A stretch of DNA of 64,000 nt from the NCBI GenBank assembly GCA_017453065.1, contig JAFTKW010000001.1, forward strand, positions 62,001-126,000, read 5' to 3'. Position numbers and translations under genes: made by a program. Position 1 is the first letter of the stretch. Each line of letters begins with the position of its first letter. This DNA comes from Lachnospiraceae bacterium (GTDB lineage: Bacteria > Bacillota > Clostridia > Lachnospirales > Lachnospiraceae). Of this stretch, positions 9,216 through 14,806 are shown one piece after another. The notes beneath the pieces are model-generated. The model saw nothing but the letters and a program-made list of their open reading frames with translations. It did not search any database and was not told the origin of the DNA.

Positions 9216-10562
9216 CTACGTTTCACTCTTAGGCTCATCCTTCGCCTCAGCCTTCAATCTCTTGAAATGCTCGCGAATCTTCTGTTCATGGCCATTGCCC
9301 GATGGTCTATAAAATTCCTGACCCGTAAGTTCATAAGGCAAATACTGCTGACGCACATAATTGTTTGGATAATCATGGGCGTATTTATATCCTGTACCTC
9401 TTCCCAGTTTTGCTGCGCCCTTGTAGTGCGCATCCTGCAGGTGCGGTGGAATTGCCAGATTGCCTGTCTGTTTCACTTGATCACTTGCCGCAAAAATAGC
9501 TTCGCAGGAGGCATTGCTCTTTGGTGCACAAGCTACATAGATAGCCGCCTGTGCCAAAATAATCTGCGCCTCCGGCATGCCGATACGCTCCACAGCCATG
9601 GAGGCATTGGTTGCCACCACAATAGCCATTGGGTCTGCATTGCCCACATCTTCGCTGGCACAAATCATGATTCGCCTAGCGATGAAGGTTACACTTTCTC
9701 CTGCATAAAGCATGCGAGCCAAGTAGTATACTGCCGCATCTGGGTCAGACCCCCGCATACTTTTGATAAAAGCAGAAATGGTATCGTAGTGATTGTCCCC
9801 ACCCTTGTCGTAGCGCATCACTCTCTTTTGGATACACTCCTGTGCCACTTCCATAGTGATGTGAATCTTTCCATCCTCGCTACGCTCTGTGGTCATTACA
9901 CCCAATTCAATGGCATTTAATGCATGTCTTGCATCTCCGCCAGAAAGGTCTGCCAAAAACTCCAAAGCATCCTCATCTATGGTAGCGTCATAAGCGCCCA
10001 TACCTTTTTCCGTATCATAAACCGCCTTCTTTAAAAGGTTTTTGATGTCTTCTCTTTCCAGCGGTTTCAGTTCAAAGACAATGGACCTGGAAATCAGCGC
10101 CCCATTGACTTCAAAATAAGGATTCTCTGTGGTCGCACCAATCAAAATAATGGTTCCGTCTTCCACAAATGGCAAAAGGTAATCCTGCTGCCCCTTGTTA
10201 AATCTATGAATCTCATCGATGAACAAAATGGTGCGTTTGCCGTACATGCCCTTCATGTCCTTGGCCTTTTCCACCACTTCCTCCATATCTTTTTTGCCTG
10301 CCACAGTAGCATTAATCTGTGTAAAGTGTGCGCTGGTAGTGCCCGCTATCACTTTCGCCAGCGTAGTCTTGCCTGTTCCCGGTGGTCCATAAAAGATAAT
10401 GGAACTTAATTTGTCCGCCTTGATTGCTCTATATAAAAGTTTGTCTTTACCAATAATGTGCTGCTGCCCCACAACCTCATCCAATGTGGTAGGACGCATT
10501 CTGGCAGCCAAAGGAGATTCTTTCTCCATATTGGTGTTTCTCATATATTCAAATAAATCCAT
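9216..10562 (-). CDS. rarA: Replication-associated recombination protein A
   Basis: 448-residue AAA+ ATPase of the RarA/MgsA/Mgs1 family, acting at stalled replication forks with SSB. Walker A is [13 protein letters not shown], Walker B FIDEIHRFNKGQQD, sensor 1 GATTEN, sensor 2 SGGDARHALN, followed by the C-terminal tetramerisation domain (MRGSDPDAAVYYLARML). It follows the MurD-type ligase by 27 bases and is probably the last gene of the murL-murD-rarA transcript. I see no terminator after it except the plus-strand one at 9165-9201. Confidence 0.95.
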   Translation of the reverse strand: MDLFEYMRNTNMEKESPLAARMRPTTLDEVVGQQHIIGKDKLLYRAIKADKLSSIIFYGPPGTGKTTLAKVIAGTTSAHFTQINATVAGKKDMEEVVEKAKDMKGMYGKRTILFIDEIHRFNKGQQDYLLPFVEDGTIILIGATTENPYFEVNGALISRSIVFELKPLEREDIKNLLKKAVYDTEKGMGAYDATIDEDALEFLADLSGGDARHALNAIELGVMTTERSEDGKIHITMEVAQECIQKRVMRYDKGGDNHYDTISAFIKSMRGSDPDAAVYYLARMLYAGESVTFIARRIMICASEDVGNADPMAIVVATNASMAVERIGMPEAQIILAQAAIYVACAPKSNASCEAIFAASDQVKQTGNLAIPPHLQDAHYKGAAKLGRGTGYKYAHDYPNNYVRQQYLPYELTGQEFYRPSGNGHEQKIREHFKRLKAEAKDEPKSET

Positions 10563-10589: not shown

Positions 10590-11837
10590 CTACGCCTGGT
10601 GTACATACTCACAGAATTTGTCTCCGCGCTCCTCAAAATTCTTGAAGTATCCGTAGGAAGCTGCCGCTGGGGAAAGCACTACCGCTCCTTGTTTTGGAGT
10701 GATTTCCTTAGCAAGTTTTACTGCTGACACTAAGTCCTCTACATAATGCACATGACTTAGACGCTTTGATATTCCTACAGTCACGCTCCCCTTGCTTGCC
10801 ACTTTTTCCAAGCTCGCCTCGCATACTGCATCATAAATACGCTTCCCAGATTCGTACATAAGGATAAACTGATACTCCACATGGTTCTTAATAAACTCCA
10901 CCAAAATATCATAATTGATGTGCCTATCCATGCCTCCCACCAATACCGTCTTGGTGTTTGGAATACTCTGGGTCGCACTGATAGTCGCCTCTGGAATCGT
11001 TGAAATGGAATCGTCATAATAAGACACCCCATCTACCTGTCCCACAAACTCCAATCTATGTTTCAAGCCATGAAACTCTTTCATGGCTTCGCGCACTGCC
11101 TGTGCATCGCAACCGTACAAATTAACCGCCACCTCATAGACAAAGTTGGCATTGTATTGGTTGTGCTGTCCCAAAAGACTTAAGTCAAACTCCTTCAATC
11201 CCTGCTCAGCAAACACCTTTGTAGTGGCCTTGGTCTGAATCTCAGGCACATTCTCTCCCACCAAAAAGAAATCTCCTTCTTTCTGATAGGTTGCCACATG
11301 ACTTTTTGCTGTGAAATATTTTTCCACGGTTCCATAATAATCCAAATGTTCCTCAAAAAGATTTAAGAACAATCCAATATGAGGAGATGCACTGCCGTGT
11401 GCCAATTGATGACAACTCATCTCAAACACCACGATGGTATCAGGCTTCATCTGGCCATAGTAATCCAAGCATGGCTGTCCGATGTTGCCTAGAAGGAGTA
11501 CTTCTCTATCTGTACACTTGCTTAAAACGGTATAAAGCAACGTCGAGGTAGTGCTCTTGCCTTTGGTTCCTGTGATACCTATAGTCTGATCTCGGAACTG
11601 CTCTAGGAAAAGTTCCGTCTGAGAAGTGTATTTCGGATGGTCCTCTTCCATCACGATTCCAGGACTCTTAACGATAAAATCGTATTTGTCTTCCTGAATA
11701 TCCTGACGCTTTCCTTCGAACACCTCTACCTGCACGTCCTCGCAAAAATTGTTCAAAAATCGTTCTGTGGACTGGCCCTCTCTGCCATATCCCCAGATGA
11801 GCACCTTTTTGCCACGTAATTTCTCTGTTATATTCAT
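10590..11837 (-). CDS. Mur ligase, MurD type (candidate UDP-MurNAc-L-Ala-L-Glu ligase, MurD2)
   Basis: 415 residues with the Mur ligase architecture. It has an N-terminal Rossmann-like UDP-binding domain (IWGYGREGQSTERF), a central ATPase with GITGTKGKSTTSTLL and FLNLFEEHLDYYGT, and a C-terminal domain with VLVGGMDRHINYDILV. It is somewhat shorter than typical MurD (about 440-450). Canonical MurD adds D-glutamate to UDP-MurNAc-L-Ala. The adjacent upstream MurL-like gene suggests the MurD2 variant, which adds L-glutamate for later epimerisation. Sequence alone does not settle which isomer is used. The start at 11837 has AAAGGAG upstream, 66 bases after the MurL-like stop. Confidence 0.8.
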   Translation of the reverse strand: MNITEKLRGKKVLIWGYGREGQSTERFLNNFCEDVQVEVFEGKRQDIQEDKYDFIVKSPGIVMEEDHPKYTSQTELFLEQFRDQTIGITGTKGKSTTSTLLYTVLSKCTDREVLLLGNIGQPCLDYYGQMKPDTIVVFEMSCHQLAHGSASPHIGLFLNLFEEHLDYYGTVEKYFTAKSHVATYQKEGDFFLVGENVPEIQTKATTKVFAEQGLKEFDLSLLGQHNQYNANFVYEVAVNLYGCDAQAVREAMKEFHGLKHRLEFVGQVDGVSYYDDSISTIPEATISATQSIPNTKTVLVGGMDRHINYDILVEFIKNHVEYQFILMYESGKRIYDAVCEASLEKVASKGSVTVGISKRLSHVHYVEDLVSAVKLAKEITPKQGAVVLSPAAASYGYFKNFEERGDKFCEYVHQA

Positions 11838-11903
11838 TCTTACATGCGCTCCTTTATTTCATGCGCTTTTACTTTTTTCTGTGCATCTGCATCCTTGCAC
11901 TTT

Positions 11904-13313
11904 CTACTTCATTTGCTCTTTCAAAAGCGCAAGCGCATCACTTGGCACTCCATGATCGCTGACCCACTCAGTCAAGAGCTCCTCCAAACTACCTGTTACG
12001 CCCTGGATGAAGCTTTGATATCTGTCTGTCAGCAGACTCTTACCGCCTCTTTCCACAAAAGTCTTTAGGGATACCTGTACCTCCTTGCGTGTTCCCACGC
12101 ACTCGAAAGGCTTGTTGTCCTCGATGCCTGCCAGTTCTCTAAAATTCAGATCCAGACTCTCTTTGTCAAACAACTTTTCTCCAAAGATGTCCTTCAATTC
12201 TTCCTCAGTCAGGAACGGAGAAAGAATAATATACACAAACAAGCACTTAGGGCAGTTGCAGCACCAAATGCCCTGTTTACTTCCAGCATTGCAGCTACGA
12301 AATACCTGATGATACTCCTTGCACTTTGCAAAGAGCCATGCAATCTGGAACTCTGAAAGTGGTCTGAGCAAGCTAAAATAAGTGATATCTGAAGTGGTTC
12401 TCTGTCTGAAATACCACATGAAATCTTTTTCAAATTCCAGGCTCTTAGAGTACTGATGATTTACTGTGGAGCCCTTCACTGTGCTTTCATTGGCACTGGA
12501 CTCATTAGACAACGCAATGTATTTTGTACCTGTAAGATATGCGGAAATCACTGCCGAAAAAGCTACCACGGCTGAAAAAGGAATATGACCGTTAAGATAT
12601 CCTTCCTTGTTCAATTCCAAAATCTGCGCATCCAAAATACGTTTGACCGCATAGTCTCCATCCTTGTGCTCACACACTGCGATGACATTTTGTGTGGTGG
12701 CATTGCCATTGATGCTATAAGTTGTAATGCGCTGTCCTTTCAGCACTTCCAATGAAACTACGGAGTCTTTACCACCGCCCACTGGAACAAGGTACCCTGT
12801 ATAAGTTCTGTCATCGTGCCAAGGTTTCTTAAGACCACATAATCCGCCTGCTTTCAGAGTCTTCACGGCATGTTCTCCAGCCTTTAGGCCTTCCACTTCT
12901 TGGCAAGCATCCTGCGCTTCGCAGCAAATATCCACCAAATCTTCCATGGAAATCTCAATTCCATTCAAATACATGAACTCGCCAAGTCCATGATAGAAAA
13001 GTTTTTTCCACCATTTAATTTGCTCTGTGCTAAGCTGTCCACAGCACACCTTCAAAGTAGGTGGGCAAACCGTCTTCCAATAACTGATGGTTTCCACCAT
13101 ACCAAGGTCAAACAGCATGGTATGAAGTAGTGGACTATCCAGTAGCCCTTCCATACGTTCTGTCTTTGGGAATCTCCACTTGGACTTAAAGCTTCTCAGC
13201 CCTGGAATCTCAAAAAGATAAGTTACGAGCAAACTATCTTCTTCCAGCACTGTCTCAAATCCCTTGTATAAAAATGTATCGTATTGTGTTCTTAATTCTT
13301 CAAATCTAGACAC
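11904..13313 (-). CDS. MurL-like UDP-MurNAc-L-Ala-L-Glu epimerase candidate
   Basis: 469 residues. The central segment has a PP-loop-like motif VGGGKDSVVSLEVLKG (about residue 195). Further on are SNESSANESTVKG, NHQYSKSLEFEKDF, and a cysteine-rich WCCNCPKCLFVYIIL. This pattern matches, from memory, the MurL epimerase described in Xanthomonas, an ATP-dependent enzyme that inverts the terminal L-Glu of UDP-MurNAc-L-Ala-L-Glu to D-Glu. Pairing with a MurD-type ligase directly downstream supports this. The start is GTG at 13313 with GGGGGAG upstream. I am fairly sure of the family and less sure the enzyme has the same activity in this phylum. Confidence 0.65.
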   Translation of the reverse strand: MSRFEELRTQYDTFLYKGFETVLEEDSLLVTYLFEIPGLRSFKSKWRFPKTERMEGLLDSPLLHTMLFDLGMVETISYWKTVCPPTLKVCCGQLSTEQIKWWKKLFYHGLGEFMYLNGIEISMEDLVDICCEAQDACQEVEGLKAGEHAVKTLKAGGLCGLKKPWHDDRTYTGYLVPVGGGKDSVVSLEVLKGQRITTYSINGNATTQNVIAVCEHKDGDYAVKRILDAQILELNKEGYLNGHIPFSAVVAFSAVISAYLTGTKYIALSNESSANESTVKGSTVNHQYSKSLEFEKDFMWYFRQRTTSDITYFSLLRPLSEFQIAWLFAKCKEYHQVFRSCNAGSKQGIWCCNCPKCLFVYIILSPFLTEEELKDIFGEKLFDKESLDLNFRELAGIEDNKPFECVGTRKEVQVSLKTFVERGGKSLLTDRYQSFIQGVTGSLEELLTEWVSDHGVPSDALALLKEQMK

Positions 13314-13385: not shown

Positions 13386-13415
13386 ATCATACCACATTTG
13401 CCCAGTAACAATCAA
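13386..13415 (-). promoter_or_regulatory. Candidate promoter for the murL-murD-rarA unit
   Basis: Minus strand TTGATT (13410-13415), 18-base spacer, TATGAT (13386-13391). The -35 overlaps the stop codon of the upstream ASKHA gene. Confidence 0.45.
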
Positions 13416-14806
13416 TTGTCAGAGTCATTTGTCTCTACTTCGTTTGCGGGGAAATTAATACTTTCCAAATACACCTTCTCAAAGTCTGGTTCCATAGCCA
13501 GATTGATTACTCTGGTACTTTCTTTTAGTCTGGCTACATACTCACACACTACTTGAGCAGCCGTTGTTCGCCTCTGGGCTATTTCTTGGTTATCTACTAG
13601 GCCTTCAATCTGACAATTCTTCTCTTGTATAAGCACCATTCTGCCATAAAGAAATGCACCCTCTAAAGCAACATTTCCAACTGCTCTCACCTTACCCGCA
13701 AACTGCTCTGGTAAAAGTCCTATGCGAACTGCTTTGTCCCCATCCAAAAAGAATCCAAACCCTCCTGCCAAATATACCACAGAAACCGGGGTGTCTTTTG
13801 TCAAAATCTGTAATCCTGCTCTAGTTGCTCCCTTGGCAAGCTGCAACCTTCGGATATCCTGCTGAGTAATCCTTTTGTCAGCCACCACTATTCCTTCCTC
13901 AAAATAAGGGTCTATCAAAAGCCCTGTTTCATCCATATATCCTTGCTCTAACAAATATGCCAGCAAAGAAACATAATCTGCACCGTAGATCTGTTCTCCA
14001 AATCCGCCGCCTTCATAAGCTGGTGCGGCAGGTGTGGCCGTAGCTATTAACCCCTCTGGGCCTGCATACACCATCTCTCCGTTGGTACCAAGGTCAAGCA
14101 GTATTGCCCCCTGCAAAATCTTAGAATCCCACACTTCATTCCTCAAGCACTCATCCATAGAAAGGGCAAACATGCCTGCCAGCACATCTGCTCCTACAAA
14201 AGCAGAAATTCCTGGCATCACGATGGTCCTTAGGCCATGGAAATCAAACACCTCCTGTTCCAAAAAGGAAGCCTGAAAAGGTGCATGAGATAATTCCTCT
14301 GTATCTCTGCCCCTAAGAAGATATAGCATGGTAGTATTTCCTGTAATTATCACGCCTTTAATCTGTTCAATGTACTCTGCGCCCATCTGACAGACTCCCT
14401 GCCAGATAGTTTCTTCTATAAGTCTACGCATCTCCTTGGCAAAATCCTTCTTTTCCATACGAGAAAGCACATCACTTCCAAACTCTCTCTGCGGATTTAA
14501 AGAAGTATAGGTATCTACTATCTCTCCCCCTGACAACCTACGCAGCGTCATCGCCACTGTGGTTGTTCCAATATCCACACAAACCAGCAACTCATCCTGC
14601 GAAAAAGCCTGCCCATAAACATCACAAGGGAGAGTTGCCAACTCACTTGGCAACCCTCCCTTTGTCAATACCTTTATATCTGCCTGATAGGTTTCACACC
14701 TTCCACAGCCTACGCATAGGGTACATGGTTTACTAGACACGCTTCCTTCTCCTTTTGAAGGTCTATTTTGAAAATCTCTTTTAGAAAACTCCCGAAACTC
14801 TCGCAA
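13412..14806 (-). CDS. RACo/RamA-like ASKHA-domain ATPase without a ferredoxin domain
   Basis: 464 residues. The C-terminal ~400 match the RACo/RamA reductive activator fold (ASKHA superfamily): LLVCVDIGTTTVAMTL phosphate loop, GVIITGNTTMLYLL, AILLDLGTNGEMVY and VYLAGGFGFFLD. Known relatives reactivate corrinoid proteins using ATP and an N-terminal 2Fe-2S domain. Here that domain is missing; only a short cysteine cluster CTLCVGCGRC lies at residues 28-37. The apparent start is TTG at 14806, just after the DUF4250 stop, with no clear ribosome site, so it may be translated by coupling. No corrinoid or methyltransferase gene is nearby, so the partner is unknown. Confidence 0.75.
   Translation of the reverse strand: MREFREFSKRDFQNRPSKGEGSVSSKPCTLCVGCGRCETYQADIKVLTKGGLPSELATLPCDVYGQAFSQDELLVCVDIGTTTVAMTLRRLSGGEIVDTYTSLNPQREFGSDVLSRMEKKDFAKEMRRLIEETIWQGVCQMGAEYIEQIKGVIITGNTTMLYLLRGRDTEELSHAPFQASFLEQEVFDFHGLRTIVMPGISAFVGADVLAGMFALSMDECLRNEVWDSKILQGAILLDLGTNGEMVYAGPEGLIATATPAAPAYEGGGFGEQIYGADYVSLLAYLLEQGYMDETGLLIDPYFEEGIVVADKRITQQDIRRLQLAKGATRAGLQILTKDTPVSVVYLAGGFGFFLDGDKAVRIGLLPEQFAGKVRAVGNVALEGAFLYGRMVLIQEKNCQIEGLVDNQEIAQRRTTAAQVVCEYVARLKESTRVINLAMEPDFEKVYLESINFPANEVETNDSDN

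Follow-up and report, generated by a model that had tools for sequence, protein, structure and literature searches.

As antibacterial targets, MurD and MurI, the supplier of D-glutamate, are commonly regarded as near-universal. A different solution to the D-glutamate step of peptidoglycan precursor synthesis is known from Xanthomonas, the closest described system being the MurL/MurD2 pair of Xanthomonas oryzae (XOO_1319/XOO_1320) and its orthologues. According to the accessible parts of two reviews, published in 2018 and 2021 (PMC8788868, PMC5808125), MurL consumes ATP to AMP and has no known domains, and the pair is carried by Proteobacteria and Actinobacteria, with distant homologues in fungi, amoebae and cyanobacteria; an adenylation in the MurL reaction has already been proposed (PMC8788868). 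Firmicutes are not named as carriers in these parts of the two texts, the original report by Feng et al. 2017 may mention them, and we did not find the route in print for Bacillota in what we had of this literature. Here we analyze a stretch of 64,000 nt (the window; positions 62,001-126,000 of contig JAFTKW010000001.1, assembly GCA_017453065.1) from a Lachnospiraceae bacterium, in which a murL homologue lies next to a gene for a MurD-type ligase. An earlier note on this DNA had called the pathway mainly studied in Gammaproteobacteria, a description that does not cover the carriers reported before from Alphaproteobacteria and Actinobacteria (PMC8788868, accessible part).

With a probability of about 0.9, we consider murL and the ligase gene to provide the D-glutamate step of peptidoglycan precursor synthesis in the host by the Xanthomonas-type route, a reading that is supported in silico. 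The ligase would attach L-glutamate first, and MurL would afterwards invert its configuration to D. Because free D-glutamate would not be needed on this route, murI and the canonical murD of the division and cell wall (dcw) region would have been lost. What we observed is the homology of both proteins, the pairing of their genes and one natural fusion, ligase residues linked to specificity, the mutual exclusion of MurL and MurI, and the lack of murD in the dcw region; both reactions, their order and the chemistry of adenylation are what we infer.

Identification of a murL-murD2 pair

The genes in question are arranged as follows:

11904..13313, minus strand: murL homologue, 469 amino acids (aa), GTG start (NF041275, E=1.8e-72)
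10590..11837, minus strand: MurD-type ligase, 415 aa, the single MurD of the host (TIGR01087, 262.7 bits), E/I/R at the positions of E. coli MurD D182/K319/K348
9216..10562, minus strand: rarA, open reading frame (ORF) with Pfam MgsA_C at 7.3e-72

The earlier note had placed a 469-residue protein with VGGGKDS, SNESSANES and CNCPKCLFV motifs directly before a Mur ligase and rarA, and this proved exact to the base: all three motifs are present in the ORF at 11904-13313, the ligase ORF follows downstream of murL after a gap of 66 nt, and rarA starts 27 nt past the ligase ORF. Just before the murL start codon is a G-rich stretch that resembles a Shine-Dalgarno sequence. The possibility, also raised in that note, that no MurL profile would match did not materialize, as NF041275 (MurL) recognizes the protein with 244.3 bits and matches 53 of 53 aligned MurL homologues. 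A single comparison with the MurL annotated in Xanthomonas sacchari gave 117 identities in 352 aligned positions (E=7e-55). Pfam returns only a weak match to DUF6395 for MurL (45 of the 53 homologues at E up to 0.1, best 1.5e-4). The ligase exceeds the cut-off of 211.95 bits for TIGR01087 (murD; E=7e-78).

Linkage of murL and murD2

In all six other members of the genus that we examined, the first ORF to follow murL, on the same strand, is the ligase gene. In the family, murL and the ligase gene are located on one contig in 25 of 26 genomes, judged by position, 24 times within 1 kb and once (G215; G, C and L numbers are our labels for genomes, contigs and loci) about 3 kb apart; in G348 the ligase is encoded on another contig. 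We also inspected 80 named loci, the best by similarity among the matches listed and not a census. A murD2 ORF is located downstream of murL in 72 of them, about 2.7 kb away in L162 and L165, and seven lack murD2 in the available stretch, four of these ending no more than 700 nt after murL; in L210, L214 and L222 murL is apparently unlinked to murD2. A contig from an uncultured member of the Eubacteriales carries a natural in-frame murL-murD2 fusion encoding 911 aa (L229, 1491-4223). Distances between MurL proteins correlate with those between their MurD2 partners (Spearman 0.735 for 78 pairs), a value reached by none of 999 permutations (maximum 0.153). The annotated murL-murD genes of X. sacchari have the same order as in the window, and the recurrence of the pair in this order across many genomes is not a matter of chance. 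The ligase is a MurD homologue paired with murL, as MurD2 proteins are. The order murL-murD2-rarA is furthermore shared with G044, which is Lachnoclostridium sp. NALB_7823_23 of the host's genus, and G074; because of this synteny, we assign the window contig to the genus.

Two plasmid-borne occurrences deserve mention. The 508-kb 'plasmid' NZ_CP010410.1 of X. sacchari (L322), which carries murL-murD, also carries a gene for a bifunctional aspartate kinase/diaminopimelate (DAP) decarboxylase and is possibly a piece of the chromosome or a chromid. Plasmid pPaSha1 of Pseudonocardia alni (L324, 3764-5164) encodes a MurL homologue with no MurD neighbor in the stretch shown; GGGRDS replaces GGGKDS in this protein, which may act on another substrate.

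D-glutamate supply and murD in the host genome

The host genome (G000) comprises 2.73 Mb on 45 contigs, is 84.7% complete and has 5.06% contamination. A single MurD exceeds the cut-off, that of the window; the other matches to the profile are much weaker and are expected to represent other Mur ligases. A search for MurI with TIGR00067 at E up to 0.001 gave no match in the host, and a D-amino-acid transaminase (TIGR01121) over its cut-off was found in none of 21 genomes, the host included. Weak transaminase matches occur in 20 of the 21 genomes, MurL-negative ones among them, and reside in ORFs of about 350 aa that are IlvE-like by size; we discarded them as a source of D-glutamate.

Host contig C18 contains, without a gap, spoVD, ftsW, murA, an ORF of divIB size, ftsZ, spoIIGA, sigE and sigG in this order. 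Only 3 nt separate spoVD (end at 9532) from ftsW (start at 9536; L321), and murD is absent between them; in the MurL-negative relatives G031 and G002 a gene for a SpoVD-like penicillin-binding protein (PBP) is followed by murD and then ftsW. We extended the survey to 14 genomes chosen for showing one MurD, of which 13 have ftsW and one (G007) does not. In none of the 13 is a murD present between the upstream PBP gene or mraY and ftsW; 12 of them have MurL, and G071 has only a MurD2-type ligase. The gene ftsW was used as the dcw landmark because mraY proved unsuitable: it yielded only a match of 80-100 bits in 10 of the 14 genomes and was dropped, being adjacent to neither murD nor ftsW in G002, G031 and G000. 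The only match to the mraY profile in the host is a divergent protein of 324 aa encoded away from the dcw region (L290, 1336-2310; G000:C12; 80.8 bits, below the cut-off), and similar proteins exist in several members of the genus, including MurL-negative G002. Among the sporulation genes of the region, SigE exceeds its cut-offs and SigG one of two, and SpoVD and SpoIIGA fall below theirs; these matches are consistent with the earlier characterization of the organism as a spore-former.

The earlier note had allowed for the MurL/MurD2 route with or without canonical MurD/MurI in parallel. The host apparently relies on this route alone, given one MurD, no TIGR00067 match, no transaminase over cut-off and no murD between spoVD and ftsW. 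On the genomic side, the lack of a MurI match also contradicts the case that the note had named as fatal to its proposal, a ligase confined to D-glutamate with murI present.

Mutual exclusion of MurL and MurI

Of the genomes sampled, MurL was detected in 7 of 101 for the genus, in 27 of 397 for the family including the host (26 of 334 genera) and in one of 398 for the phylum, namely the host itself. With the curated TIGR00067 cut-off of 146.65 bits, MurI is present in none of the 7 MurL-positive versus 89 of the 94 MurL-negative genomes of the genus, in none of 26 MurL-positive versus all 17 MurL-negative genomes of the family, and in none of 50 genomes behind the named MurL loci; the single-contig, 99% complete MurL-positive genomes G395 and G489 also lack it. 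The family controls were MurL-negative genomes with a listed completeness of 93% or more (13 + 4), with 6% contamination for G105. The 50 genomes were selected from the 80 named loci for isolates and taxonomic spread, and at least four of them are also among the 33 MurL-positive genomes of genus and family. Fisher tests that ignore kinship give p=4.6e-8 for the genus and 2.4e-12 for the family. In a MurC tree of 40 genomes MurL is scattered inside the genus, with five changes, at least three of which are forced by supported branches. The five MurL-negative genomes of the genus without MurI over cut-off (G051, G056, G066, G071 and G092) are drafts of 61-90% completeness.

MurL-positive G929 encodes a relative of MurI (108 bits with TIGR00067) behind an ORF resembling the D-Ala-D-Ala ligase gene ddl (L233, 1438-2283; G929:C33). 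Its second cysteine motif reads LADGHY, as compared to LGCTHY in four MurI proteins of the genus, where we take the cysteine to be catalytic. The protein gives the impression of a racemase in decay or put to another use, which would fit decay after replacement. Other weak TIGR00067 matches in MurL-positive genomes do not exceed 43.8 bits, and since similar ones occur in MurI-bearing genomes we did not accept them as MurI. In three places (G073:C103, G215:C7 and G395:C1) weak Asp/Glu-racemase matches are separated by about 0.4-2.1 kb from ORFs of 508-543 aa that resemble Mur ligases, and perhaps serve a separate D-amino-acid step.

Residues linked to ligase specificity

In X. oryzae MurD2, Glu197 and Arg358 occupy the positions of Asp182 and Lys348 in E. 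coli MurD, and an E197D/R358K double exchange turns the enzyme to D-glutamate; exchange K319T in E. coli MurD (K330T in Streptococcus mutans), at a position found by random mutagenesis, permits acceptance of L-glutamate (PMC8788868, accessible part). We compared positions D182, K319 and K348 of the E. coli enzyme (the published numbering omits Met1) in 104 MurL-type ligases, i.e., 103 MurL-linked rows plus the unlinked MurD of MurL-positive G348, and in 17 canonical-type MurDs. The linked rows include G071, where MurL was not found, the fusion protein and three doubles (G044/L153, G332/L170 and G367/L189); left out were G128, whose slice contained a stop, and three MurDs with split matches, namely the second one of G210 and the MurL-linked ones of G215 and G236. 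A dcw position was seen for 5 of the 17 canonical-type MurDs (G002, G031, G044, G009 and G395).

Lys348 is replaced by Arg in all 103 linked rows (104 of 104 with G348). At position 319, 102 of the linked rows have Ile and one has Leu (Ile or Leu in 104 of 104), and Asp182 is replaced by Glu in 81 of 103 (82 of 104). The MurD of G348 reads E/I/R, as do X. sacchari MurD2 and the ligase of the window, which thus has Glu and Arg where X. oryzae MurD2 has E197 and R358. The canonical-type MurDs read D/K/K in 17 of 17 cases, including those from MurL-positive G009, G044, G074, G218 and G395. Of the three positions, K319 separates the two groups best in this set. That Ile naturally takes its place in MurD2 is our reading of the alignment; the accessible part of the review (PMC8788868) gives only mutants.

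A possible mechanism for MurL

Two regions of the MurL homologue, with coordinates computed from residue numbers, are relevant here:

12762..12785, minus strand: PP-loop-like motif PVGGGKDS, residues 177-184
12243..12293, minus strand: four-cysteine region C341-x9-C351-x2-C354-x2-C357, predicted metal (zinc) site

GGGKDS (residues 179-184) and the four cysteines are invariant in 53 of 53 MurL homologues, the cysteines also in 7 of 7 proteins including that of X. sacchari. A profile built from the 53 sequences matches TtuA (PDB) at VGGGKDS with E=2.9e-4 (hmmsearch). Comparison of this profile with single E. coli proteins, one pair each (hhalign), gave 2e-4 for TtcA, 0.011 for TilS and 0.016 for QueC, versus 0.15, 0.17 and 0.3 for three unrelated proteins, at probabilities that are low throughout (46% for TtcA, 4% and 3%, both <5%, for TilS and QueC). 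A PP-loop of the SGGxDS type is therefore detectable in MurL by profile, at these low probabilities. MurL and QueC align collinearly over 193 columns, with C341, C351, C354 and C357 opposite the cysteine cluster of QueC, whose residues presumably bind zinc; the Pfam QueC model itself matches only 2 of the 53 MurL members (best E=0.018). QueC activates a carboxylate with ATP. MurL thus appears to resemble PP-loop ATP pyrophosphatases remotely and to combine this with a QueC-like four-cysteine cluster. Because of the TtuA/QueC-like motif and the aligned cysteines, we propose that MurL would adenylate the alpha-carboxylate of glutamate in a PP-loop active site equipped with a metal site; the alpha proton would then be lost, and hydrolysis would give the D form.

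Distribution and origin

Among the matches listed, carriers include the Lachnospiraceae records AC2028, KH1T2 and MA2020; further carriers are Pseudobutyrivibrio xylanivorans DSM 14809, Mordavella massiliensis, Clostridiales 1_7_47_FAA and Ruminococcus flavefaciens XPD3002, as well as metagenome-assembled genomes (MAGs) of Bacilli, Erysipelotrichaceae and Bacteroidales. Many of the Clostridia carriers are gut or rumen MAGs by title; P. xylanivorans DSM 14809, R. flavefaciens XPD3002, Lachnospiraceae AC2028 and M. massiliensis stand in records not labelled as such. The sole match labelled 'Bacteriophage sp.' (L323, MT836755.1; 43% identity) is an UNVERIFIED, unannotated fecal scaffold, probably a bacterial contig, and provides no evidence for a phage gene.

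In a quick MurL tree, Lachnospiraceae appear in both halves (the split is starred at 95), and rows from Bacteroidota, Bacilli and Oscillospiraceae lie between the Lachnospiraceae groups, with at least four changes forced by supported branches. Because other taxa split the Lachnospiraceae rows in this way, we read the tree as pointing to several acquisitions of murL-murD2; loss from an ancestral state or misbinned MAG contigs could also account for the scatter. The pair has the appearance of a displacement cassette acquired by Clostridia on more than one occasion. A wider proposition, to which we give slightly less than even odds, is that the D-glutamate step in Clostridia is an exchangeable module: murL-murD2 would have been taken up by Lachnospiraceae and related groups on several occasions, murI and dcw murD becoming dispensable on each of them, MurL would be a metal enzyme of the PP-loop type, similar to QueC, in which adenylation of the glutamate carboxylate precedes inversion, and species with two MurDs would be in the midst of displacement or use D-glutamate from the walls of other bacteria.

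Counterevidence and alternative explanations

Several observations weigh against a MurL/MurD2 route in the host or its relatives. The 244.3 bits of the window protein stay far below the curated cut-off of NF041275 (700 bits), which no genome exceeds in the samples of genus (0 of 101), family (0 of 397) and phylum (0 of 398); as this model is named for Xanthomonadales, a single order, the shortfall bars the narrow label and leaves membership of the wider MurL family unaffected. In a draft as incomplete as that of the host, absence of murI alone is weak evidence. Once kinship is controlled on the MurC tree, only three supported independent pairs are left, too few for a sign test. TIGR00067 also gives weak, sub-cut-off matches in 2 of 7, 8 of 26 and 15 of 50 MurL-positive genomes, the host not among them, and an unrecognized racemase is conceivable in those genomes. 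A further draft, G071 (80% complete), has a MurD2-type ligase alone (L078, 9557-10780; G071:C49), and MurI, dcw murD and MurL were not found in it. As to the residues, Asp182 is retained in 22 of the 103 linked rows, the solved D-glutamate ligase 3lk7 aligns with Arg at the K348 position and keeps Lys at K319, exchanges D182E/K348R do not confer use of L-glutamate on E. coli MurD, and Arg also occupies the R358 position in S. mutans MurD, which physiologically uses D-glutamate (the last two points from the accessible part of PMC8788868). Glu and Arg in the ligase are accordingly not sufficient proof of L-glutamate use.

The alternative that survives best, though we regard it as rather unlikely, is that some members run both systems, MurL/MurD2 for synthesis and a canonical MurD for salvaged or environmental D-glutamate. 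Six of the 33 MurL-positive genomes (G009, G044, G074, G210, G218 and G395) indeed keep a canonical-type MurD with no MurI found, which also counts against the main reading; its gene lies between mraY and ftsW in G044 and directly after mraY in G009 and G395. Two MurDs may, however, merely mark a recent, unfinished displacement, and in the host as assembled, with its one MurD, such an arrangement is impossible. It is very improbable that the MurL homologue is a racemase for free glutamate or an enzyme for another glycopeptide, acting beside a ligase that still uses D-glutamate. The Pseudonocardia plasmid homologue without MurD neighbor and a superfamily that may have other substrates would fit this idea, as would the occurrence of Arg at K348 in D-glutamate ligases; however, X. 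oryzae MurL showed no glutamate racemase activity (PMC8788868, accessible part), position 319 is Ile or Leu in every MurL-type row and Ile in X. sacchari, and pairing, fusion and correlated distances tie murL to murD2. Equally improbable is that assembly or binning missed murI and a canonical murD and that the pair is an accessory set: completeness and contamination of the host draft and the five incomplete MurL-negative drafts without MurI would allow for it, but we reject it in view of the contiguous spoVD-ftsW-murA-ftsZ stretch on C18, the pattern across many genomes (single-contig ones included) and the synteny that ties the contig to the genus.

Surroundings of the pair

One further feature was noted upstream of murL:

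13386..13415, minus strand: candidate murL promoter, weak, TTGATT-18-TATGAT with TG (promoter scan)

The scan gave no excess over shuffled sequences (12 found, 11.3 expected). On the same strand as murL and upstream of it, the gene at 13412-14806 shows a sub-cut-off resemblance to corrinoid activation proteins (AcsV/RamA). On the other side, rarA is a neighbor outside the pathway and possibly co-transcribed.

Comparison with known systems

The murI/murD pair appears to have been replaced in scattered Clostridia, and the occurrence of both routes among the species of a single genus is a natural experiment. NCBI's narrow cut-off would deny these proteins the name MurL. The natural loss of the K319 lysine and the PP-loop/QueC resemblance provide direct hypotheses for MurL/MurD2 enzymology.

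The locus shares a homologous MurL and an adjacent MurD2 with X. oryzae and its orthologues, where, as in the host, no enzyme forming D-glutamate was found; with X. sacchari it shares gene order and the E/I/R residues of the ligase. It differs from the Xanthomonas system in that the host belongs to the Bacillota and not to the Proteobacteria or Actinobacteria, in the modest identity to the X. sacchari proteins (33% for MurL, 25% for MurD2), in the shorter MurD2 (415 versus 478 aa), and in a trait that in Clostridia is polymorphic within a genus, leaves some members with a canonical MurD and includes one natural fusion. Like the canonical MurI/MurD system, the window has a ligase that is MurD-type by profile; unlike it, the host has no detected MurI, Arg and Ile at the K348 and K319 positions and no murD in the dcw region. 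With the PP-loop ATP pyrophosphatases TtuA, TtcA, TilS and QueC, MurL has a GGKDS-like motif in common, and with QueC also a collinear four-cysteine cluster, whereas the similarity, assessed by sequence, is remote and the substrate differs.

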